NCBI GenBank assembly: GCA_949130485.1
Contig: OX422186.1
Coordinates: 3,637,313-3,701,312 of the forward strand
Direction of reading: 5' to 3'
Origin: Agelas oroides
Taxonomy: Eukaryota > Porifera > Demospongiae > Agelasida > Agelasidae
Length of the DNA: 64,000 nt
A model generated the notes under the pieces. It was not told the DNA's origin, did no database searches, and was given only the letters and a program-made list of their open reading frames with translations. Below are positions 12,201-51,200 of the stretch, piece after piece (the stretch's first letter is position 1; every line of letters starts with the position of its first letter). A program made the translations under genes and the position numbers.

Positions 12201-15200
12201 TTGATGTTGATGGATTTCTGGAGGATGTTAGCTGTTTGCACTTATCCACTTGACAATGGAATCATGGGTGTAACTGTTGTCTAATTGGGTATGTGCATGT
12301 GTGTGTGAGTGGTTGTTCTAAGGCACTGTGGTATATACATGACTGTCTACCTGTTCTGTTGTATGACAGGGTTGTAACACTGTATGTTGTGTGTTGTCCA
12401 AGGAACAGTTTCTATAGCTGGTTATACATTGTGGGCAGGTGTGTGTAGGTTGTGTATGGTGGGTGGCAGGTACATAGGTCATAAAGAGGTAAGGCATAAC
12501 TGTGGTAAAGGAACCCTTGGAGAGTAAGAGTGTTTTTCCGGGTTCTTCCAGTACTTGTTACGGGACGCTTGCCTTTTGCTTTCTTTGTTTCGCAGATAGT
12601 TCTGCTTATCCCGCGCCCGTTTCTTGTGGACGTTACGCATACTGCGTTCCTTGTCAAATCCAGCACAAGTACGTCAACTGCTGTATGAAAGTAGCAACAT
12701 ATGCAATCGTTTGGGAATCAATCGATCTTCAAGTTCTCTACGGAAGTAGAATAACCGCAGCTGCATGCCAACTTCACGTGCTGTAGCTGTTGAACTTCTG
12801 TTGACGTAATCGCTATGAATATTCTATTCTAACAAAATGGCGTATAGCAGCAAGCATAAGCGTGGGGTTACCTGAGAATCGCCGATTAATTCGACTTCTT
12901 TTTTTGAGAACGATGAGTGGTGGGTACAATACCCAGTAATTTATGCTGATCTTTCGCGTTTGAATCGTTGTAATAGCTTCAGCCGTTGTCGTGCTATCGT
13001 GGTGAGCAAAAGAAGAAGAAGAAGAAGAAGAAGTCAGAAGATAGACGATTTGCCTTTTTTAGCGACTTGACTGTCAGGTACTTAGCGATGCTTTCCAGCA
13101 AATTTAACGATCCTGTTGCCCATGGAAGCACTCGATAATGTCTGATATGGCTCATGGAGGCCGTTGACTTATCTAACGCGGACATTTCGAGCGTGTCATT
13201 TGTGCACTTTGAATGTGGCCGCCATTTTTTTTCGGGGTCATCCCTACATATGGCGTACTACCGTACGCCATGATACAAATTCTAAAAGTCTACAGCAACA
13301 ACACAGGAATCTGGTGGTCACAGAAGGTTTAACATTTGCAGTTTAAGCATAGAATTCCACTGCTACTCTGAGTACAAGGCCAGTACACTTGAACTTCCCA
13401 AATCATTTTTCAATTATTATGTTCAGAACCCAGAAAAATCAAGATTGAGACAACACAATGTTACACACACATAACAGATACCATCATTACTAGGTATGCT
13501 ACCCAGTTGTGACCTTAAGTTGGATCAGATTCATCATAAAATCCTGCAAATGAGCCCTGAAAGTTGCCTTGGCTAGCTAGATATGTGTATAGCTGGTTTT
13601 TCTAGAATTGGCTCCAGACTTCATCAAACTCTGCAACTAATGAAGACAGTACACCTGCTGAGAGACACATGTAGAAAGAGCACAAAGGAAGACAGCTGCA
13701 CATCTGTTTCAAAAACACGTTGAAAATGACAGTTGAAGACTCTTTTGGCAGTATTGATGGGAAATATACTGATAATCTTTTTTGCAGCTGAAGGTGTTTT
13801 TGGTGCAAAATCCTTACGTAACTGCCAGTATTTTGGACTGAAGATTGTGGTAGATATATGTTAATGTCATTTAGAAAGATCACTTACACAGATTCTGGGG
13901 CAGTGCTTTGTTGTTATATTGACATGAGAGTTTGGTCAATGTACATAACAGCAATGCACTGCCATCCCCAATCCACAAAGGGATCTAACATGAGGATAAG
14001 TGTATTTGGCTTCATTCTAGCCTTGTTCCCAAGCTCTCCCCAAGAGTGAACGAAAAATCGAAAGGAAAGGGTAGACCCAGGTAAAATTTATCTAGTGGTG
14101 GGACGAATGTTGAAACATTCGGAAGTTCATTCGCTTCATCGAACCTTCGAACGTACAGTTATGGTTTCGAACCAGTGACCACACCTACATCGCGCCCATC
14201 AATTTCATTGGCGGTTGCGAGCAATTGCACAACGGCGCCACGTGTAGGTAGTCAGAATGGCGACTAGCAGCGGTAGTAGCGCTAGTGGCACCAGTAACGC
14301 TAGTAGCGCTAGTAGTACAGAAAGATCCGATGTTTGGAAGCATTTTGACAAGACTGGCACCAAGAATGTCACTTGCAGGCTATGTGCCAAACAACTGGCA
14401 TACCACGGAGGTACAACGAATCTTCGAGATCACCTCACTCGTGTCCACATGGACAAGTATAAGCCTGCCAAGAGGACAGACGATCAACCGTCACTGGAGA
14501 CCTTCGTGTGGAAGTGCTCTGACGCTAGAGCGAAGTTAATCAACGAGCTAATCGTTGATGTAGTGACAATGGACATAAGACCACTTGCCATCGTCGATGG
14601 AGAAGGGATGCGTCGTTTATTGCTGTACCTGGAACCTGGCTACCGTCTTCCATCACGCAAGCATATTAGTAGACTTCTAAGGAAGAAACACGAGAAAGCA
14701 ATAGCCATTTTGAAAGGCAAGTTAACCCAGGATGCCATCGCTGTCTGGCTCACAAGCGACATGTGGACCAGCAATACGATGGAGGCTTACATGCCCGTCA
14801 CAGCTCATTTTATCACACCTGCTTGGGAAATGCAGAGCTGCGTATTGATGACTAAGCCTTTTCCAGAGCGCCACACTGGCCAAAACATCGCCGACAGCAT
14901 TGAGCAAGTTGTCAGAAGTTTTGGCATCAACACGGCAAAGGTCAAAGCTGTAGTGCACGACACAGTAGCGAACGCGGAGCTTGCTGGTGATCTCATGTCT
15001 CTGTCTCTTGACTGGGAGAACGCTGAGTGTGCAGCCCACAAACTGCAGTTGGCAGTCAACGAGGGACTCCAAATTCCCGCCATTGCTCGTGCTATTGCAG
15101 CTGGACGAAAGTTAGTGGGTCACTTCAAACACAGTACCCTTGCTACAGCAGAGTTAAAGGTGCGACAGGAGCGAATGGATGTTCCCCAAAAGAAACTGAA

Positions 15201-18200
15201 GCAGGACTCTCCTACCCGATGGAACAGCACCTTCTATATGGACGAGCGTCTGCTTGCAAACAGGTGGCCAATATCTGCTGTTCTGTCAGTAACAAAGAGG
15301 CAGGATAGAGCACTTGACCGTCGCAATAAGCAGTGGGAATTGTTACAAGAGCTGGTGAAGCCGCTGCAACTTCTGGAGACAGCAACTGTCTTCCTCAGCA
15401 AAGAGACTGATGTATCAGGCTCTTGTGTCTATCCCATCATACATGGCCTAATAACAAACCTTGAGGCAACTGACGAAGACCTGCCTGTGATCAGGCATTT
15501 CAAGGTGACAGTGGTGGCAGCATTAAGACCTCGTTGGTCTTTTGACAGTATTGATTTGATGAGTTCACCAGCATTTCTTTCTGTACTAGACCCTCGCTTC
15601 AAAGCCCTCAAGTTTCTATCTGATCCTGAGAAAGAATCCATGAAACCCCACTTGGTGCAGCTGGCTAGTGAATAGGATGAGACAGAAGAGGAGAAGAATG
15701 AGTGTGTTCCTCCAGCAACCAAGAAAAAGAAGACAGCTTTGGACTTACTGTTAGGCCCAGAAGAAGCTCAGTGTGAGGAAGAGCAAGGAGCTGCAGTAGA
15801 AGAGGTAACACGGTACTTTGCAGAAAAGCCAGTCGCTAGAGAGACAAAACCGCTTGTTTGGTGGAAGATGAACTGCTATCGCTTTCCAAGACTAGCTAAG
15901 CTAGCATGAATTAAACTGTGTATCCCAGCAACATCCACCCCATCAGAGAGACTGTTTTCAAAGGCAGGTCAGATAATCAACAAGAGGAGAAGCTTACTCA
16001 AGCCTAAAAATGTGGATGCCATTCTGTTTTTGAACAGTAACTACAAATATTTGTGTCTTTGATTTGTGTATTGGTAGTGCCTGCTGGCTGACAAGTATTG
16101 TGTCTTTGATTTGTAACAATTCTTTGATTTGTGTATTGGTAGTGACTGGGGATGGACCATTGTGGTTATTTATCACATTACCACATTTTGTGCTAAGTGT
16201 GCTTGCAAAGATAATAGATCTTTAGTGTAAACTGTAACCATAGATACTAGAGGCTGTGTAAAGAATGTATTCGAAAACTTCGGTGGAAGCTGTCAAAGGT
16301 TCGAAGTGGGGAAATCCCCATTCGTCCCACCACTATTTATCACGTGAGAAATGTCATAGGTAAAGAGAACTTAATTACATGTGGGCGAACGAATGAACTC
16401 GCCCACGCTTTACGGACAAAATATATTCGTTCAGTCGTAAAAGCTTAATGGTCGACAGAACAGGACTAGATGCCATTACGCTACATTACCTGGCAGTATG
16501 GCAAGCTATATGGTAAGTATACACAGACCCATACATTCAAACATCATGCTAACTTGCTCGCTTACTTGGTAGACTGATTGCTGCACATCCCGGAGAATGG
16601 CTTCCAAGGCAATATTAAACTACAAGGTGGCCCTTTCCTAGGCTTTGCTCAAGCTTTCTCTGCCTTCTTGTTTGAGAGTATGGCCAGAATGGGCTCCTAA
16701 CAAACACAGCTATGTGTACTGTCGATTGCACAACTAAGTGGATTGGCACATTGACAATCTGCCTACACTCAATTAAGTCCTCTCTACTTTCTCTCTACCC
16801 TCTACGTCACTCACATGATAAGTTATTTGCTCTTCTGTACTGCAAGCGACAGAAAGCTGGGTGGGGCCTAGGAACGAGGCTAGCTTCATTCCAGAAACTG
16901 TAATTTCTTGGCTTCAGTCATTACGCACAAAATTGGATTATCACAAATAAATTGTGACCACAGCTTACATAGAATTAGTAAAATTCCTGGAGTCGATGTA
17001 CAATGGATGTATTGACAGAAGATATAATTATAATGATTCTGTGAATGACCAATGAACTCTTTTTAGCATTCCACCTGTTCATAATTTGGATTGCACTTTT
17101 GTAAGGTAAGTGTGCGTGTGTGGCTTCATTCTAGAAAATGTAAATTTTTGGCTTCAGTCATTATCCACCAAATGATTAGCATAAATAAACTATGACTGGT
17201 TTATGAAAATTCCTGGAATTAACATAAGATGGATTGTATATAACATTAATGATGTACAACTTTAAGCATTCCATGTTCAACAGAATTCAAGTAACAAGCT
17301 TGTGAGTGAATGTAAAAGTGGTTTCAGTTTACCAAATAACAGACTAATCTCTAATTTACTTACTTCCGAGATATATTGATGTTGTAGGTCGATGTCTGAT
17401 CAATCTGCACAGAAACTAGTGATGTTTCTCTGGCCCTCTTTGCATGTAAGAGTCTACAGAAAGCAGTAGTACCAAACTGTAAACAAATCTTCATACTGAA
17501 ACCATTTTCATTTTCCTATACATTAGTTTATTTTAGTTCACTTCTCTGCTGAGTCACTATGTGCATTCTGATTTTGATTTCATTTTTCCATGAGTTTCAC
17601 TATGTAAGTTGTAATTCTGAAGCAATAATTGAAATCCTAAGCATTATTAACACAATTATATAAGAAAATATAAACATTAGAAACGTAAAAAAAAATGTAG
17701 GGATGGCACACCAAAAAGTATGCAAACAAAAAAGTGAAGGTAAATATAAATTATCCAAGCATCTCTTTTACACTAGAGTCACAACAGTAGTGTAAAAAGA
17801 TGTAGGGATAGCACTTTGTATATTTACCTTCACTTTTATATCATCCCTACTTTGCTAGCACACTTTTTGGTGTGCCATCCCTACATTTATTTTCTTGTTC
17901 TCTACTGTTAATCTCAGTCACAGTTAGACCTAACCTAAGATTTCTTTCAATAACCCTAGAATTTGAAACAGCATTGACAGTTTAGTAGTGGTTTCAGGCA
18001 TGTAATATACCAGCTGGAATCCGATGAAGGGCTAACACTCTCTGTATCAGATTTCGAAAACTTTGTGAAGCTGATTTCCTGATTTTCAATCACATGGCAA
18101 CTTACCAGCACAGACAATTGTACCGACAGAGCATAAAAACTGACCATCCTGGTGTTACCAGAGCTGTATTTTTTTAGTGTAGCTATAAGTAAGCAACTGA

Positions 18201-30200: not shown

Positions 30201-33200
30201 TTAAACGCTTGTGGTATGCAGTGTACATCATATTACATGGGGTATCTATACACTATAATATTAAAGCTGGTTGTAGGGATGGAAGATCAAAGGGGTTTTA
30301 TACTTTCCAACTAAAGGTCTACTCTTGTGCCCAGCCTGCCACACCCCCTGATGGCTGTCATCAAATATTTGCTGACCACTTCATAGAGTAACAGACCGAC
30401 CTCATAAAGTAAATGTGTAAATGACCGACCACATGAAGTAACTGACCGACCTTATCAAGCCTGCGTAGGAGTGTTCTGATTTTTAGACACTAATAACACG
30501 CCATATTTCACTCACCTGTCAAATGGTAGTCTCATGCCGAGACTAGTCAAATTAAGTGAATGAGTAGCCTCATTCCCGGGCCCCCGCCCAGCTTTTCGCA
30601 ATCCTGGGAACAAGGAGGCTGGTGAACGTGAACACGTGCCTGGAGTCCGCATATGCCTGCTCTCCACCGTATCCAAGTGGTTCACCGTATCAAAATGGTG
30701 GACAATACCAATGTTAAATAGAGAAGTGCAGAGGAGTGAACTGCTTTGGTCTCTATCAGGTACACATACATTTTCTTTTTTAGATTGCCATGTCATTGCC
30801 ACGTACAGCAATTGTTTAACCCAGAAAATGTGGTGATTTCAAAATTTTTCACTGGACTGACAAACTGACAAACTGACAGACAGACAAAACCGATTGCCTA
30901 ACCCCTTCACGCATGCGCACACGGGGTAACAATTATATGCAGTCACCCCAGTGCAGCTGATGAGGCCTGGTGTTGGCTGAAACACATCCTTTGCAGTGAT
31001 AGACTTTGCATAGCATTTAGGCCTATTTTTTAGGGAGATGTGGATTGTTGATTGTTCATGTAGAGGTTGACTTGCATTAATTCTGTGAGGCAGTTAATAG
31101 CCACTAGACTGGACTACTGAAAAGGAATTCATTGCTGGTCTGTTTTTTCCACTAAAGTCGATCTTATACATGTACTCCTTAATTAACACCTCTATGACTT
31201 CATTCTGCATCAGATCGAGTTGGAACTATATCTACCGAGATGCATATACTCTTTACATTAGTTTAAATAACTAGTAAATAAATAATGCAACACTACAGAA
31301 AAAGGAGGAAAGTCTAGCCTTGACTTTGTAGCCAGGTCTTTAACACCCTAGATCAAGTAAAGATTCTAGGAACTGGAATGGTATCTACGGTAAGCATGTA
31401 TTGTACTCGACTATAGTGTCAACCAGGGAGTATTTACTAATGCTGTACTTGCTTGAAGTTTGCATTGCACTTTCTTCAGAAATACACTGTCACTAAGTAG
31501 ATGGTTATGCAGGCCGCAAGAGATAAGGTAGCAAGAAGTTGTGTGTTTGGAAGCTAATCTATACCAAGGGTCTGTGTATAAGACTATACTGCAAAGTAAA
31601 TATATGACTTCATAACTACCTGGCAGCTGCCACTTTCCCCAACTCCTTCGACACCTCAAGATTGATTGTTAAACCACAGCATCTGAATATAAAAGTATAA
31701 CAACAGTGAATGTGGCAGAGAGGCTAGTGAACAGTGTTGGCATTATTTTGGTTGCAAAGAGGTATCACAGTAAATTGTTGCAGGCTAAAATTAATGGGAA
31801 CAAGGGGAAATGAAAATAAATTTTCATACTGCTTTGCATAGGTTATCAGTAGAAATAAGGTTGGCAAAGAATAATGTTACTCCTTCTTTTGTACTACTTG
31901 TTTCTACAAAAACCATGTTCGGCTACCCATAACCCATTTCTGTAACAAGTGTATTTCCTAGTTGCGTTATTTCAAGCAGTCATAACTACATAAATAAATA
32001 CCGTAGTGTCCCGTTAATACGCCCCCCCATTTTGTACACTACATCCCGCCTAAAGTGGGGGGGGGGCTTATATTCGAGGATGCAATTAGTCTCGACTATA
32101 AGCCCCCCCCTATGAAATCAATGCCTTTCACTATCAACTAACTATGGCGACGACTTTCAGGATCGAGAGTACTGTTCGCGGACATCACGTTTACAAAGCT
32201 GCGTGGTCTCCCTACATCGGAGAAGAGCTGCCAGTTCAACGCGAGGTCAATAACATTCACGACGACTTCGCTGTAGCTGTCCTCAAGAACGGCAACACTG
32301 TCGGTCATGTACCACGGGAAATTTCCAGAGTCTGCTGGTATTTCTTGCACAAGAGTGGCAGCGAGACGACTATAGTCTTACTGAACGCACTTGCAACGTA
32401 TAGTAAGCACGTGTAGTTTTGATGTTCCAGAAGACGCTCACCGGGGGGGGGGGGGGGGGGGGCGTTATAACGAGTCAAACCACCCTGTGCAGGAACTTTG
32501 GCGGAAAAGAGGGGGGGGGCGTATTTTCGAAGGGGGCGTATTAGCGGGACACTACGGTAACAGTATCTTACCAAAACATTCAAGAAACTAATATCTATGC
32601 GATCACTGAAAATAAAATATGTACTCCACACCTGATCATTTCCAGTGTGGAAATTGTGTTCAGTAACTGCAAAACTCCTCCACCACTTCTGATGACAGCA
32701 AAATCTGTGCTGTTTGTCAATAAAAATGGTAAATGCTGTGTCAGTAAAACTGCAAGGAAGAGACACTCAACTTGGATAACAAAACTCTAGGAGTACACTT
32801 CTATAATTCAGCTGCAAACAAACTGTCTCTTGCATAAATGTCTACAGCATAATCCTCCTCCTAAGAAACATATACATGGAAAAGACTCACATCAAGTATT
32901 TCAGTGAATCCAAAGAGGAAAGTTGTGCAATCAGAGCTTCACCAGATGGTAGCTGAGAGCTCTTTGTAAATTTAAATCTGTGGACACAAATGTATCATAA
33001 GTGTACATCAATTATTACCCAGTTCATATACTTTCTAGTATTCTCTATATGTACAACTACTCTCAAGTATCGTGTGATATTCAATGGTAGTTATTTGATT
33101 GCAGCTGTTGCCCAGGGAAACTATATAAAAACTTCATTGTGTGATGTGTGCGCAAGTATATATTGCACATGTGCAAACTCACAAATGATATAGCAACAAA

Positions 33201-36200
33201 CAGTACAAAGACAGCTGAAGAAGACTACAGCACTGTAGTCGAAACGTTGGCATTTGATGATAATTGATGTAAAAATTCGGGTTGGAATTGAAGAAACCAA
33301 AAATCAAAGACAGCTTTGTTTAGTATGCTAAAGTACACAAGGCTAAGAATGTTGTGAAGAAAACTCAAGGTATAAACGCTTGGAAATGGTGGCGTGATTC
33401 AATCAGCAAACAGAGAAATGCAGAAGATAAAAGCTATAGACTCTTCCACTGCTTTTTTTCAGAGCTTTGACTACTACTTAAAGGGCAGGCTATAGGTAGC
33501 ATCTTAGACAAGGAGTTTGAAGGAGTAAGAAAAGTACTTGAGGCTAAATGCAAAACTTTGAGATGACAGTAAGCAGCTCAGGCAATAACAGAAGATGAAG
33601 AAGAAAAGCTCTGTTTGGGTAACCAGCCAGGAACCATTCTTTATGCAATACTGAGTACCATGCTTTTTAGGTGGAGGAGCTGTAATGAAGATCATCATGC
33701 TTGCCTAGCAGACTTTCTTGTATCAGAGGATGATGAAAGCACAGAATACATTGAATCCTTGATTGTAAAGGGGACAAAAACCAGAACAGGATGTGAATGT
33801 GAATGGCAATAGGAAGGTGCTTTCAATCCCTGTATGTATGGCACTGGGACCAGGTGTGGTCCAGTTCTTTATTATAAAAAGTATGTAAGTCTTCATCCAG
33901 AGAGGGCATATGAAAGTAAATTCCCTTTCTACCTTGCAACTGCTAATACTTTTAAAGAGAACATTCATTACAAGAGCTAATTTGTAGGTATCCACTCATT
34001 GCCAAAACTTGTCTAGCACCAACAACAGTGTTGTGGTGAGGACTTTGTCTATATAACAGCTTCTGATGTCATACCTACCCAATTGCTCACCTAAACTTGT
34101 ACTAACACAATGCAAATCTGCCCTTTCGAGCCATACACACAAAACTGTTCAATGATTTGAAAGAACAGCATGAATCAGTCACCTGATTAGCTGAAGGTCA
34201 CACAACCGTGTGTACTCAGATAATGCAAAACGGTCACAGTTATATAATGCATTAGTCACAGTGAGTGTATAACATAACCTCAACTGTTATTGCATTACCT
34301 TCGCACACACACATCAAAGTACTCAAGGTTAGTTCAGTGTGCTGTAAATAATATACGATCTCCATAATACCTTATGCTCTGAATGGAATCATCATCACAT
34401 AAAAAAATCGTAGATTGTCATCTTCAGCAAATACAAGTAAAATTAAAAACATTTTATCAGTAGTATTACTGGCAAGAATAAAAATCATACAGCATTACAT
34501 TTTAAGTTAAACTTAGCCATGAACTGAACCAAACAGGTAGGTTATAGCAATTTTTCTTCATACAAGTATAAAACTTGGCTCAAGCTACTGTACTGTGTGG
34601 ATGTATTTTCAAGTGAAATAAAGCAAAACATTTTGCATCCATAAGTTTAACAGCCTTCGGTTGGGTCTAAAACATTGCTACTCTCCCATATATGCTCCTT
34701 GAGGGAACAATGCTTACATTATATGAATCAACAATTCCACCCATTCAATGGCAAAAACTAGTCAATAAAATCAGCAGCAAGCCTTCACAGACTGACCAGT
34801 TAGACATGTAACAACTCACTCTAATGTTTCTACATTCGGAAACTTTCCAAGAAAGGCAACAAATGCAGTAACAACCTTCCTTCTTATCAACGTCTTCTTG
34901 AGACTGAAAACAAGTGAACAGAGAGAACACTAAAATAATTACAGTGACTGTGTAGATTTGATTGTGCTGCACAAGCACTGTCTCCTGGGTTTTGAGGTGT
35001 AATAGTTTATCTGTGTATTGCATTTTTCGGCCACACCCACTCACATTACCATGGCAAGTTCTTCATGCATGAAAGATGCTACACACCTCTTCTATATTCT
35101 AGTTCTGCTATCAGGTGCTAGATTTTTTTCCTCTGGCTAACTTTCAGAGTACCACATGTTAGTAGTTCTGCTTGACCAGCAGTGCAAAGCCTGTTGATTA
35201 GTTTCAAAGTAATGTCATCTCATGCATGCATGCAGACAGAAAGAGAGCAGTATACATTGCTGCTGACAGTTTAGCACTAGATGCCATGCATGACTACAAC
35301 TGTTCAACACTTGAAACATTCGTTATCATATCACAATCAAAACTTAGCCCACAGTACCAGTCAACAGTTCAGTAACACACAAAATCTCCTGCATCACAAA
35401 TATATATACTGTACCTGAGACACTTTACATTCACTAGTGGATGACAGCACTCTGATGTCAGCACCTGTAGTTCTTCGCCTCCCAAGTAACAAGAATGGAA
35501 ACCAACTTTTGTCAGTGTATCAAGAGCATTCTGTATACAGTAAGCAACAGCTACAGAATCAGTGGGAGTAAGAATTTCATCTGAAATACACAGTTCACCA
35601 CTCATGCTTGAAATGAGTTCACAACAAGCAGCCTTGTTCTGTGACTCGTGGATGCTGTGTGATAACAGTAAGGGGTCCAATTTATCCTGCTGTAACAGTA
35701 CATGAAGGACACCAGTAGCGACATCCCCAGATAGTTTTGTTAATCCACAGTAAAACTTCCACATGACTCGCATGTGCCTATCACCACCATGTTCCTCTGC
35801 TGCCTTCAACTGTTCTGCATCTGGAAGTTCAGTTAAGTGATAAGCTGCAAGAAATTCTTGGAAGGTAAGATGAGCAAAGCTGTAAGTCTCTTCCAAGCCC
35901 TGCTCTATAAGCAGTCTGTCTTCAGTAAGTAGGCCTAGACTTGTCAACCTGAACTCTCTTGATCCAATGTGCTCCTGAATTTCATCTTTGGCAAAGATCT
36001 GCTCTGACTGTACTGTAGCAATGTAAGCTAATCTACAAATGTTCTGGAATATCTCCAGTGTTCCTGAAGGTAGTTGCTTGATGTCACTCAATTTGGAGCA
36101 TGTTATGCCTAATTTCCTCATGTTAAGCAGCAAGGTATGTAACATGAACTTGTTGTAAATATCAGTTTCAGTGTGTGGAAGAGTGCCAGTTTCTAGATTA

Positions 36201-39200
36201 TCATTAAGGTAGACAACCATAGCTAAGTGCAGCGGAAGATAACACATGTGGCTAATGTTTGGATGGCGTTGCAGGTAAGTCGATAAATTTTTTACTTTAT
36301 CATCCTTCCCCTCATAGTGCTCCTGGATGTATTGTTGTATTTCTGGACGAAGAAATCCAAGGACTTCAACTCGCTGTGTTGCATATTGTCGTATATCATG
36401 AGCTGCAGCAGGCCGGGAAGATGCAGTCACTACAGAATTGGGCAGCATTCTGCCAGCAAGAACCTCCAGAACAAAGTTACCAGGAATTAAGCTTTGTGGA
36501 TATTCATCAATTCCATCAAACACAATGCACACTCCCTTTCCACCTGAGTTAGACACTTCCTCTCCAACAGCATGGCAAAGGTGCCCAGTGTCATACAATT
36601 GTAGAATGTCATCTAATTTGACCTCTGGCTTATTATGAAATCTTCGAAGTGGGACCAAAAGCAACAGTGAAATGTCTTTGAGGATATTCTTGTTTGCCCA
36701 GTCAAGACTGACCTTATTCATTAGGGTCGTCTTACCGCAACCAGGCCGTCCCTCAACCACTATCCTAGCACCACCTTGCAAACTATCAAAAAACGTATTA
36801 TAACCAACTCTTTTCTTCTTGCTGACTATATCATCGGCAGATCGCTGAATTGTCATAAGAGTGTAGTCATCGCTAAATGTCAGTTTATCTGATTTCAATA
36901 TCGCAAGGTTTATAAATGTTACTTTTCGCATAGGAGGCCAACAATCTTCTTTCTGAAGAGTAGCTCTTTGGTACACTGCACAAACATTGCTACAGTAATT
37001 ATGATAAGCAGCACCTAAAAACAAAAAGAAGAAATTGCAATATTACTTTCTTGGGAGCACATGATGATTCCTACCTTTACACCAATAAACCAATCGCTTG
37101 TTACTGCATGGACATGTGATTCGGTTGTAGTGTAAGTCCCACGGGGAAGTACGCATATAGGTTAACACTTCTGTTCAGTGAGTGAGGTGGTAGCATTAAG
37201 TTATGAAATTTCAAGTAGCCCTTGACATTAGTTTCCTCAAATCTTGCTTACAACTCAGCATGGTTGCAAGGTCACTTGTATTTATAAATATTCACAGAGG
37301 TTGTGTATGATATAGCACAGAATCAAGCTTTGATCAATATTTGGAAGTGACAGTAGTACATATGCAATGATCTGGCCAAGTAAACCTCAGTTTATTGAAG
37401 CCTGCACCTAGGCTGTGTTTTTGTGTGATTTTATAACCAGCAACACCTATAAATTTCCGTAAAAGCAATCCACAAGACAAACACAAAAAGTATGCACTAC
37501 TAAAATTGAGATTTTTGTTAATCTTTCTTCGACCAAATTCAAAACTGGCTCAAGTACTAACCATGGTTCGAGCCAAGAACATTTTACCTCAGCATAAAAT
37601 GCCCAAACCATGGCATCATCACATCTTCAAATTAAAACAGGTGAGCTTACAGCAACCACAGGAAAATCTTTACCCTAAAAGCAGTTCATTGATGCTGCAT
37701 GTGTATGAGAACATGTTGTCATTGGAATGCTGACAATGTCCACTCTGTAGTCCAGTGTCTAGTTTTATGGGGGTCCCATTTAATACTGTGTGAAAAGTCC
37801 CACTTCCAATTAAGAGCATAAAGAGCAACGTGGGGAATGTGTGCTATATCGATCGTGTTCATAGCAGAAACTACACCTTTGGAAAGGTCAGCCAGTTGTT
37901 GCAGACATACAGTCTAGGTGTAGTTTAAACACCAGTAATATGTAGGCATGAGGCTTTGCTTATATGTTGACCTCTGATTTCATGCTATCATCCCCACTTT
38001 GTTTGCACACATTTTGGCAGGCCATCCCTACATATGTTCGTACATTTTAATTAATTAATGTTTGCTTAGATGCTTGCTTAGGCATATCATGGGAAGAAAT
38101 AACTGTTCATACACACTGCCTGAGCAGATAATCTCAATATCCACCACCTCAGCCTCTGGCTCAATTATCTCCAGACCAAGAGCTATTCTAGGGCTTAGTT
38201 TGGGAATAGGAATCATTATTAAAGTCATACCATTCACATGCAGAAATGTTAGTTTGATGCTCATTACAGTTGGGATTTGGTCAAAGGGTGGTCTGAGGTA
38301 TATTTGCCCAAGAAACCTATTGATACTGCTACCACCCACATGCCGAAGTTTCTGCCTTCAGAGTTGCACCATGAATGACTTTGACCATCAATCAGTTCAT
38401 AAAGAATGAACTTAGAGTCAAAGAGGACAAACAGACTGACACTTTATATGTGTACACACAGTGTTGATGCAGAGTAAAACAGAGAGGCACCTTCCCTGTC
38501 TGCATTTACTGAGTGGAGCTGAAGCAAAATAAAGCACTTTACAATGACACCAGGCTTGATACAGAATGGACAGGGGATGAAGGCTATCCTTGTGGAATGC
38601 CCACTGGTACCTTGATGCTCATCACAAGAGGCTTGCCAATAGGGCACCCTAAGAAGAGAAATTAGCATTGCTTTAGTGCTGATAGATTGAGACAGCACAT
38701 TGCTGCCTTGTCAGCCACTGTTTAGGAACCCTGATTAATCTTGCATACGATAAACCACATAGGAACAAGTGTGCAGATACTGCTGCTACCCATACATACA
38801 CAGAAGATTCTTTGATTCAAACCCTTGAGGCTTTACTTTAGCATGACACTTCACAAGAGTACCAGGGACTCATTTCTAAAGCTTATGGACACAGACTACT
38901 TGAGCCATTATATTTGCTGGAATAATTTTCCTGAACACCATTTTGAAAGGAGCACCCAGTTTCCTCAAGTGAGTGGCTGGATCTACAGTTCTAGCCTGGC
39001 AATTTCTACTCGAAAGTCTTATCACATTCTGCAAGTTACCCCTGAAGACTTGTACCACATTTCTGGCCATTATAATTAAAAGATGTACAGTATTACTCAC
39101 TCTTAATGCTTGTTTCCCAGATGACAAAGCCAAAGTACCAGTTGGTAAGTGATTCATATTCGAATGAGTTGTTGCACTATAAACACGTTCAAAGGGTGTA

Positions 39201-48200: not shown

Positions 48201-51200
48201 TGTATGCATGAAATACCACATGAAAGACTACATGAGACACTGTACATTGGGCGGTGTACACTCGAGAGACTGTACATGAGGCGGTGTACACGAGAGACTG
48301 TACATGAGACGGTGTACACGAGAGACTGTACATGAGGCGGTGTACACGAGAGACTGTACATGAGGCGGTGTACACGAGAGACTGTACATGAGACGGTGTA
48401 CACGAGAGACTGTACATGAGGCGGTGTACATGAGAGACTGTACATGAGGTGGTGTACACGAGTGACTGTACATGAGGCGGTGTACACGAGAGACTGTACA
48501 TGAGGCGGTGTACACGAGAGACTGTACATGAGGCGGTGTACACGAGAGACTGTACATGAGACGGTGTACACGAGAGACTGTACATGAGGCGGTGTACATG
48601 AGAGACTGTACATGAGGTGGTGTACACGAGTGACTGTACATGAGGCGGTGTACACGAGAGACTGTACATGAGACGGTGTACACGAGAGACTGTACATGAG
48701 GCGGTGTACATGAGAGACTGTACATGAGGTGGTGTACACGAGTGACTGTACATGAGGCGGTGTACACGAGAGACTGTACATGAGACGGTGTACATGAGAG
48801 ACTGTACATGAGGCGGTGTACACGAGCGACTGCATGAACAACCAACAAACCACATCTCCTTAAAAAAAAATAGGTCTATTTGTTATGTAAAGTCACCCAC
48901 TGCACAGTACACATTTTGGCTAATATGAGAGACTACACAAGAAAGATGGTGCATGAGAGATCATGCATAGGAAAAATTGTACAAATGCAAGACAACTGAG
49001 TCACTGCATATCATATGACTGGATTAATTAACCCTTTAAATTCTGAATTTTTTTCACTTGAAACTAGTTTAGCCTATACATGCTTTTAACGCACTGTATC
49101 TCCATTTCTGTCCAAGCTCTGACTCCAAAACTGAACCCAAGTCCACTTCCAGCCTTAACAAGCAGACTTGTGACCTTAACCACACCCACTCATTAACGAG
49201 CATGCAATAGTCAGCACTGTCGGTTGTCAAACACCCGCTCAGAGCCCAAGTAGCCTTCCCTACCAGAAATAAACCACCTACAAGGCGAGAGTAGCATTTT
49301 CTAAGCCTGTTCATGCAGCCAGGGCAAGAATTGGCCCACCCAGTCCCAACCATGGCGCTTTTACAGCCAAGCCTAGCAGCCACCATGTGCATGTCACCCT
49401 ACAAGTAAATACATACATATTGACAATAACAACATTAAATACAAAAACCCATGCACACTGCACAGGCGTAATTATACATTAGAAATTGCACCTCACATGT
49501 ACTCAGCAAGATTTTAATTAGTACCATTTTGCAGGATTAGATACACACATTTGACTTACCCTGTACGGAAGTATTGCTGCCAGCTCTCAGACATGGCCCC
49601 ACACCATTATTCCAATCAGAATTTAAAATACTTTGTCCACCCATCAACAGTGGATTTGGTTCAACAGGAACACAATCACCTAATGTTTGTTGTGCTGCAG
49701 AGATCAAGAAAATCCAGCATGCCATTATAAGGGCAACACTCTTGCAATCCAAGCACATTCTCAAATTTCTGTATACGCTCATTGTAATAGCATGCAGATT
49801 GACAAACCCACTGACAGACTGACTCACTGTCCCAGTCACATGCTTATCAAAGATCAAACACGTTTTGCTGCAGACCACACTACTCACTCAGGCTAGCGCC
49901 AACTACTACAGCTATCATGGTTTTTGTGAGAGCTGCAATTTGTGGGTGGTAATTTGCTTCAAAGGATATTAATTCAGCACATGTAGGCACGTTTGCTAAA
50001 TCAGTGTTTCGTTACTGAGCTCTTGCCAATGCAATGAGTACAAGAAAATAAAGTGAAGGTAAATATATAAAACCCTATCGCTGCATGTTTTTTCATGAGT
50101 GTAAAAAGATGTTGGACTACGGCTGGTATCTTTACCTTCACTTTTTAGTTTCTTGTCTCTTGATGTTAATTATAGTTACAGGTGCATCCACGGTTATAAT
50201 GGACGAAGCAGCATTTCAGAAGAACACGTATCTCTATGGTGGACATTTCACACTGCACACTGATTGCAAACCAGCTGAGCTGACCCTCAACAATGCCAAG
50301 TCCAGACCACCTGCACGTATCGAGAGATGGAACCTCCGTCTGCAAGAATACCACTTCTCTACCGTTCATACAAAAGGTCAAGACAGCCCATCTGATTTCC
50401 TGTTTCGACATCCTAGTCCAGACATATCAAGTGTTGAGCAAGAATCAGCTGAGCAGTATGTGAGGTTCATTGTGACCCACTCTACGCCGAAGGGAATGTC
50501 ATTAGTGGAGATTCAACAAGCAACCAGGGCAGAAACCCGACCAAACGTCTCCGTTGCCACCAGAACCATGGCACACAGTTCACATCAATTTCTGTGGACC
50601 CTTTCCAACTTGAGAATATCTTTCCGAGAAGTTGACATTGTCCATTCCACAGCTGCCAAAGGATCGATATCAAAACTCGAGTGTGTATTGCAACGCATGG
50701 TGTACCTACAATAGTGAGGCGTGACAACAGTCCGCCCTTCACGAGTCATGGCTTTGAGTCATATATGGCAGAAATTGGTTCATCAGTGGCTTCAAGAAGT
50801 TTTCTGCTTCCAAATTTGCTTGGGGCCAGAGTGGTGTTATTTTCTGGTGTGACGAAGACCAGCTCATGCAGAAAAGAAAGATTGGAAAAAAGAGCTACAC
50901 ACATTCCTGTTCAATTATAGAGTCACCCCACACTCAACAACTGGATTTCTACCTTCGGAACTCATGTTCAGTCGATTGATGAGAACGAAATTGCCTCACG
51001 TATTAACTGTTTGTGACAGGAAGAAAGAAAGGAACAATGATTACAGCTGTTAGAAGTGGAAAGTATGTCACTCAAAATGCATCAATGTTCAAAAAGTGAA
51101 CTTGGGACCCTGTCAGAGGGAAGAGGAAGATAGTGACGATGATGATAATGCTGACCAAGATGATAGAGCTGAAAACCTTTTAAACTGTTCACAGAATAAT

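Follow-up and report, generated by a model that had tools for sequence, protein, structure and literature searches.

Captured genes within small elements bounded by terminal inverted repeats (TIRs) are a known kind, and Pack-TYPE elements, or gene-capturing MITEs, are defined by a cargo that is absent from the autonomous parent. Two further bodies of knowledge bear on the locus described here, that on pogo transposons and that on the HIRAN domain of HLTF. According to the accessible part of PMC7386202, pogo elements possess one or two ORFs encoding transposases. In the accessible portions of two papers the HIRAN domain of human HLTF is reported to bind the 3' OH of single-stranded DNA (PMC11237066), in a cavity bordered by Y72 and Y93 (PMC4666394); moreover, the ejection of Cas9 from cut DNA needs the HLTF HIRAN and is inhibited by the isolated domain (PMC11237066). 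A short non-autonomous element of the sponge Agelas oroides is shown here to derive, by two internal deletions, from a two-gene pogo-superfamily transposon, which encodes a DD36D transposase and, as a separate gene, a HIRAN protein.

The window, that is the whole stretch of 64,000 nucleotides that was analysed, contains the element between TA dinucleotides at 32001-32557, with inverted repeats at both ends (Table 1). The arms (31999-32026 and 32532-32559) comprise 28 nt, TA included, and are 96% complementary. The open frame of 90 codons, from its ATG to the stop, scores above the Pfam cut-off for HIRAN (24.7 bits) over residues 24-73. As these cover only positions 21-71 of the 96 of the profile, the match is called partial; a complete HIRAN domain is absent from this copy, the C-terminal part being gone and followed by a tail derived from non-coding DNA.

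Table 1. Features of the miniature element, in positions of the window
Feature	Position	Strand	Evidence
TA target-site duplication, left	31999..32000	.	sequence; all 39 copies having both TIRs are TA-flanked
Left terminal inverted repeat, CCGTAGTGTCCCGTTAATACGCCCCC	32001..32026	+	sequence; genome count; same ends on parent
Subterminal hairpin, 20-nt arms 32059-32078 and 32091-32110	32059..32110	+	
First-deletion scar, approximate (transposase gone; parent about nt 112-1743 lost)	32108..32114	.	blastn, three copies vs parent
90-aa frame: truncated HIRAN frame (about codons 1-74) and 16-residue tail, former 3' non-coding DNA	32144..32416	+	
Pfam HIRAN match (PF08797, 30.7 bits)	32213..32362	+	
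Second-deletion scar: about 190 bp lost (HIRAN 3' part and DNA after it)	32365..32371	.	aligned pieces overlap by 7 bases
Right terminal inverted repeat	32532..32557	-	sequence
TA target-site duplication, right	32558..32559	.	sequence

Three other features of the same window were recorded. A 551-aa frame on the minus strand (35372-37024) contains a NACHT domain (69.2 bits) and is NLR-like; a 472-aa frame at 14257-15672 contains a BED zinc finger (48.7 bits) and would appear to be a hAT-type transposase; and a tandem array at 48229-48832, with 21.5 copies of a 28-bp unit and 93% matches, is open in several minus-strand frames.

The element belongs to a family, designated A, which is dispersed in the genome. 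When no more than 2 mismatches were allowed, the genome of 259 Mb contained the end motif CCGTAGTGTCCCGTTAATACG 339 times in forward and 333 times in reverse orientation, which corresponds to about 336 elements if each has two such ends; a control search for the reversed motif gave 0 matches. In a similarity search with the window element, in which 40 of 383 candidates were scored, the matches fell into two length classes. Both TIRs were present in 39 of the 40 places retrieved, the window copy (L058) among them, and every one of these 39 was flanked by TA left and right; the remaining place, L063, was without the right TIR. Twenty of these 39 copies were short (543-599 bp) and 19 long (733-760 bp). 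The long form contains a HIRAN frame of 120 aa (32.3 bits, cut-off as above), and the short form, represented by the window copy, has about 190 bp less. The last 16 residues of the window frame correspond to the 3' non-coding sequence of the long form, read through after the deletion, and are not HIRAN. Thus, of what the first-pass annotation had described, the TA-flanked element with good TIRs was confirmed by the arms, the flanks and the motif counts, and the 90-residue HIRAN frame held with regard to the match over the cut-off but not with regard to its completeness.

The state of the frame was read in two sets of copies. In 13 of 20 long places picked by similarity, L063 not being among those read, it was unbroken to the 120-aa end; an additional in-frame gap of two codons was found in L069, a place of the same set. 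The second set, read by eye, consisted of 20 places chosen by the left TIR only, the first of the 58 among 100 listed left TIRs for which no HIRAN was contained in the best 150 genome matches, so that these copies are perhaps more decayed than average. HIRAN remains were nevertheless found in 19 of them, and the idea that the 58 left TIRs are truly devoid of HIRAN was rejected on this ground; none was detected in L080 within the 1,000 bases compared after the left TIR. The full-length frame of 120 codons was unbroken in four copies (L084, L086, L091 and L098), and the others showed stops, frame shifts, deletions or insertions; in 16 of the 20, therefore, the frame was either disrupted or undetected.

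Some further observations concern family A. Another short-form copy, 96% identical, is located at C4:3634949-3635499, some 1.8 kb before the window begins and 34 kb from the window copy. Length variation among the copies gives the impression of lying mainly in runs of G or C, and exact lengths may partly reflect sequencing or slippage noise. At C2:11799547-11800683 a family-A TIR and HIRAN occur with a weak DDE_1 match (C2:11800555, 36.7 bits) on the strand of HIRAN and about 0.6 kb from it; this locus may be a derivative that was rearranged in another way.

In this genome the parent transposon is represented by two nearly identical copies, on C5 and C3. A genome search with the DDE_1 profile listed 149 places, 27 of which were compared systematically with 88 family-A HIRAN places; two, at 103.5 and 101.0 bits and each within an open 455-aa frame, lie on C5 and C3 next to HIRAN frames of family A. 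The two copies are 99.5% identical across 2,084 bp, the far end of the C3 copy being unread. The C5 copy, read at both ends, is 2,375 bp long, has TA on both sides and carries the TIRs of the window element; the right-end repeat of the C3 copy also matches family A. The first ~111 bp and the last ~632 bp of the C5 parent match the 745-bp long form at 97-98%, and the middle missing from the latter holds the transposase. This gene is open, encodes 445 aa from MSYQ and lies on the strand opposite to HIRAN. With 437 aa taken from the C3 copy, BrkDBD (29.0 bits), HTH_Tnp_Tc5 (48.9 bits) and DDE_1 (98.7 bits) were all above their cut-offs, and the triad D177, D286 and D323, chosen by motif and not by structure, has a spacing of 36 (DD36D). 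The HIRAN gene of the parent is open, 120 aa long and divergent from the transposase; the gap between the two ATGs (1575 and 1777) amounts to 202 bp, the first Met of the frame being 18 bp nearer. The TA duplication, the TIRs, the CENP-B/Tc5-like HTH together with DDE_1 above the cut-off, and the DDxD motif are those of the pogo superfamily.

The miniature forms arose in two steps. Removal of the transposase from the parent gave the ~745-bp elements with HIRAN only, and a second deletion, in which ~190 bp were cut from the HIRAN region, the short form seen in the window. About 33 bp of the parent's sequence upstream of the HIRAN ATG are left in the miniature form, and for this reason the promoter may have been lost. 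The short form was amplified after part of HIRAN had disappeared, which indicates that an intact HIRAN is not needed in cis. Lacking a transposase, sharing its ends with an element that carries one and occurring in high copy number, the window element is a MITE and as such an ordinary miniature derivative, which the parent transposase would mobilise in trans through these ends.

The substitutions in the HIRAN frame of family A were counted in 61 copies; of 63 entered loci, L035 was left out because it duplicates L078, and another gave no match. Changes found in single copies numbered 39 nonsynonymous, 13 synonymous and 1 stop, where the absence of selection would predict 36.3, 15.4 and 1.3 (omega 1.27), and changes common to at least two copies numbered 10, 3 and 2, against 10.0, 4.7 and 0.3 (omega 1.56, pooled). 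Within the subsets of the family the singleton omega was 1.17 for short, 0.98 for long and 2.49 for TIR-picked copies; the shared-change omega in the three subsets was 0.51-0.68, on only 1-6 changes each. The 3' non-coding stretch showed 17 singletons in 6,339 site-copies, a rate similar to that at codon positions 1-3, with 14, 20 and 19 singletons in about 6,260. Since the singleton pattern is near the neutral expectation and the non-coding rate is similar, the HIRAN of the miniature copies is a neutral passenger, the frame of which drifts.

This result bears directly on the proposal of the first-pass annotation, in which HIRAN was the functional sole cargo of the element, to be recognised by intact copies and by their dN/dS. 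A mobile element with HIRAN only, in which the gene is a selected cargo of the miniature transposon, could draw on the frame above the Pfam cut-off and on the 13 of 20 similarity-picked long copies with an unbroken end. It was rejected on the neutral pattern in family A, by which it is largely refuted; the broken state of most TIR-picked frames and the spread of the short form with the domain cut also speak against it, and we consider it extremely improbable. At the miniature level the proposed check turned out negative, with neutrality in the 61 copies and four unbroken frames in the perhaps more decayed TIR-picked set. The parent combines transposase and HIRAN, and it appears to be one level up, where HIRANs linked to transposases are under purifying selection, that HIRAN serves transposons.

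Linkage was examined outside family A. HIRAN places were taken from the best 150 of 903 candidates, of which 88 family-A places were set aside and 62 non-A places used, and transposase places from 76 matches, of which 55 were retained and 21 dropped as further pieces of the same loci. Fifteen of the 62 places, the query pair L029 itself and the pair L030, known before the count, included, lie within 6 kb of one of these pogo-like transposase places, and all 15 pairs are convergent. In 2,000 trials with places drawn at random, three chromosome lengths being estimated, 0.19 such pairs occurred on average and never more than 3, and in the control none of the 88 family-A HIRAN places lay within 6 kb of one of the 55 transposase places; neighbourhood by chance was rejected on these figures.

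At least five of the 15 linked transposases (C3:1094345, C1:23126381, C12:1014087, C16:2450619 and C3:11139729) have, as judged by eye, DDE_1 above the cut-off at or beside the same coordinates, and a Pfam search with the L029 and L030 fragments matched no transposase family. Identity to L029 was weakly correlated between HIRAN and transposase (rho 0.51, p 0.063, n=14). In L029 both genes lie inside inverted repeats of 20 identical bases, (A/C)CGTAGTTTGGGAAAATTTCG, beside TA; the end of L030 reads CTACGG and then TG, not TA. Both are tied to family A by the common CCGTAG start. The divergent arrangement of the A parent, as against the convergent one of the 15 linked pairs, shows that gene order differs between the lineages.

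The remaining 47 of the 62 non-A places have no listed transposase within 6 kb, and might be explained as derivatives, as decayed copies or as host genes. Such HIRAN-like places, and the fact that captured genes in small TIR elements are known, would fit the view that a MITE took up a host HIRAN fragment in the Pack-TYPE manner and that no transposon carries HIRAN otherwise. The parent, however, has the same ends and holds the same HIRAN gene, so that the cargo is not missing from it as the definition of Pack-TYPE elements has it, and HIRAN stands beside transposases in the 15 further places and in a second transposon group. Capture of a host gene by the MITE was rejected because the parent carries HIRAN, and the view as a whole is highly improbable; an older capture into the parent itself is possible.

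Two further findings concern HIRAN places. Fourteen places on many chromosomes (C2:4792995-4793228, C16:6774462-6774695 and C21:3281416-3281649 among them) have near-equal scores and frames of 91-94 aa, and probably represent another HIRAN-bearing miniature element. In L009 (1513-3238, minus) a strong HIRAN match (50.5 bits) in a 258-aa frame overlaps the end of a 342-aa frame, for which no Pfam family was matched; the locus may be one more element that carries HIRAN, or else a gene of the host.

Seven transposase-linked HIRANs, compared over 88 codon columns (L029, L030, L102-L105 and that of the A parent), gave an omega of 0.086, with lnL -1895.6 against -1993.0 at omega 1, kappa also fixed. 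With the addition of L026, the transposase of which is 5.2 kb away, and of L032 and L037, near which none was found, omega for the 10 sequences was 0.123 (lnL -2623.7 against -2764.4 at omega 1). The values are rough, with long branches and synonymous sites nearly saturated between lineages, and their direction is clear. Linkage and omega together support the conclusion that the transposase-linked HIRAN is a selected accessory gene under strong purifying selection.

The second group of transposons, family B, has TIRs that start with CAGTGGAACC and TA on both sides; the form read in L012 is 1,507 bp long with arms of 529 bp. In a 3.9-kb copy on C22, TIRs of ~520 bp (95% alike, TA-flanked) at both ends enclose a transposase, broken between two frames, and, convergent to it, an exon of HIRAN, and a copy on C4, with one end found, has an open 619-aa transposase frame beside HIRAN. 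The transposase remained below the Pfam and NCBIfam cut-offs (DDE_3 14.9, HTH_33 16.8 and IS630 16.2 bits), and a search of solved structures gave no clear relative, the best relevant match being Sleeping Beauty (E 0.91). The TA target, the TIRs and a D..E motif fit IS630-Tc1-mariner, and family B is tentatively regarded as IS630-like. Among 18 family B HIRAN loci a larger part of the transposase was found in four (L010, L011, L013 and L015) and only its first 38 residues in 11; loci that keep these 38 residues are deletion derivatives, as in family A. L012, L014, L016-L022, L024 and L025 are foldback elements of about 1.5 kb (arms and TA target read in L012) with the HIRAN exon and the 38 residues. 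A pogo-type HIRAN fragment in L023 (1434-1629) comes to within about 60 bp of one end of the C22 transposon.

The family B HIRAN gave an omega of 0.150 (7 sequences, 72 codons; lnL -533.4 against -553.6 at omega 1), a value which rests mostly on the single contrast with L010, six of the seven sequences being near-identical; between L010 and L011, pS was 0.72 and pN 0.20. These figures also concern the reading of HIRAN as a relic of old captures, of no use to the transposon. Stops in some HIRAN places and the neutral drift of the family-A copies would agree with it, but omega is 0.086-0.150 in the two groups, where omega = 1 is far less likely, and the relic reading is very unlikely. TA-targeting DNA transposons thus seem to carry HIRAN as a recurrent accessory gene.

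The only solved chains matched by these HIRANs, at E up to 0.1, were HLTF HIRAN chains. The family B HIRAN, as a single sequence, matched HLTF at E 0.0013, against E 0.037 for the profile of the pogo type; being nearer to HLTF, it hints at a separate recruitment of HIRAN in the two groups. Y72, Y93 and N90/N91 are the pocket residues of HLTF. The Asn equivalent to N91, the next Asp and the Gly-His align with HLTF and are invariant in five aligned sequences. The stacking Tyr93 of HLTF is not kept in pogo-type HIRANs, which makes 3'-end binding by them uncertain; family B keeps it, within NPYD.

It is tempting to suppose, by analogy with HLTF, that the excised element, or the donor break, exposes 3' DNA ends to which the small HIRAN protein binds. 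Bound there, it may stop HLTF-type host translocases from stripping the transposase complex, or channel the repair of the ends; while the transposon moves, its job would be to hold the 3' ends, perhaps in competition with HLTF-type enzymes of the host. A regulatory role, in which HIRAN binds the DNA of its own transposon or the transposase and tunes or represses transposition, would suit the 202-bp divergent gap of the A parent, from which both genes might be controlled jointly, and derivatives with HIRAN and without transposase could act as repressors. All 15 other pairs are convergent, however, and the accessible parts of PMC4666394 and PMC11237066 present the HIRAN of HLTF as binding 3' ends and not as a repressor, so that regulation is unlikely. 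Somewhat doubtful, if worth keeping in mind, is the more general proposition that two unrelated groups of TA transposons each recruited HIRAN as a 3'-end-capping, counter-repair gene, by which HLTF-type translocases would be blocked from taking apart the complex of transposase and DNA, and which would be selected and repeatedly shed into miniatures. The explanation as a whole, namely a twice-deleted pogo derivative with HIRAN as a neutral passenger in the miniatures and as a selected accessory gene beside the transposase, with a presumed 3'-end mechanism, is very probable.

If pogo transposons have a second gene under selection, from a DNA-end-binding family, some of them bring their own tool for DNA ends or host repair. 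Its shedding into miniatures explains hundreds of HIRAN frames in a genome that are not host genes and would mislead gene annotation. The term HIRAN is absent from the accessible texts of PMC7386202 and PMC7325037. A literature search, judged by titles and the first part of abstracts and extending little into subscription journals, where a prior mention is possible, gave no paper that pairs HIRAN with pogo and none on HIRAN in transposons; a selected HIRAN as second gene of pogo-type transposons and of a second TA-transposon group is absent from the literature searched and is worth testing.

With regard to known systems, the window element resembles MITEs in being short and without transposase, in its hundreds of end motifs and in the ends it shares with an autonomous-looking parent; family A differs in that a readable frame of an accessory gene is kept in many copies. 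The transposon HIRANs resemble those of HLTF/Rad5-type helicases in the Pfam match over the cut-off and in the conserved Asn, Asp and Gly-His, whereas they are standalone proteins of ~120 aa, the parent frame having neither SNF2 nor RING. The ciliate Tec and TBE elements, in the accessible part of PMC7325037, are likewise transposons of Tc1/mariner type with extra genes beside the transposase; their hosts are different, and the extra gene of Tec is a site-specific recombinase and not HIRAN. The pogo superfamily (Tigger, Fot and relatives, within IS630-Tc1-mariner) has in common with the parent the TA target, short TIRs, a BrkDBD/Tc5-type HTH, DDE_1 with DDxD and internally deleted derivatives; the parent differs from it by its separate HIRAN gene.
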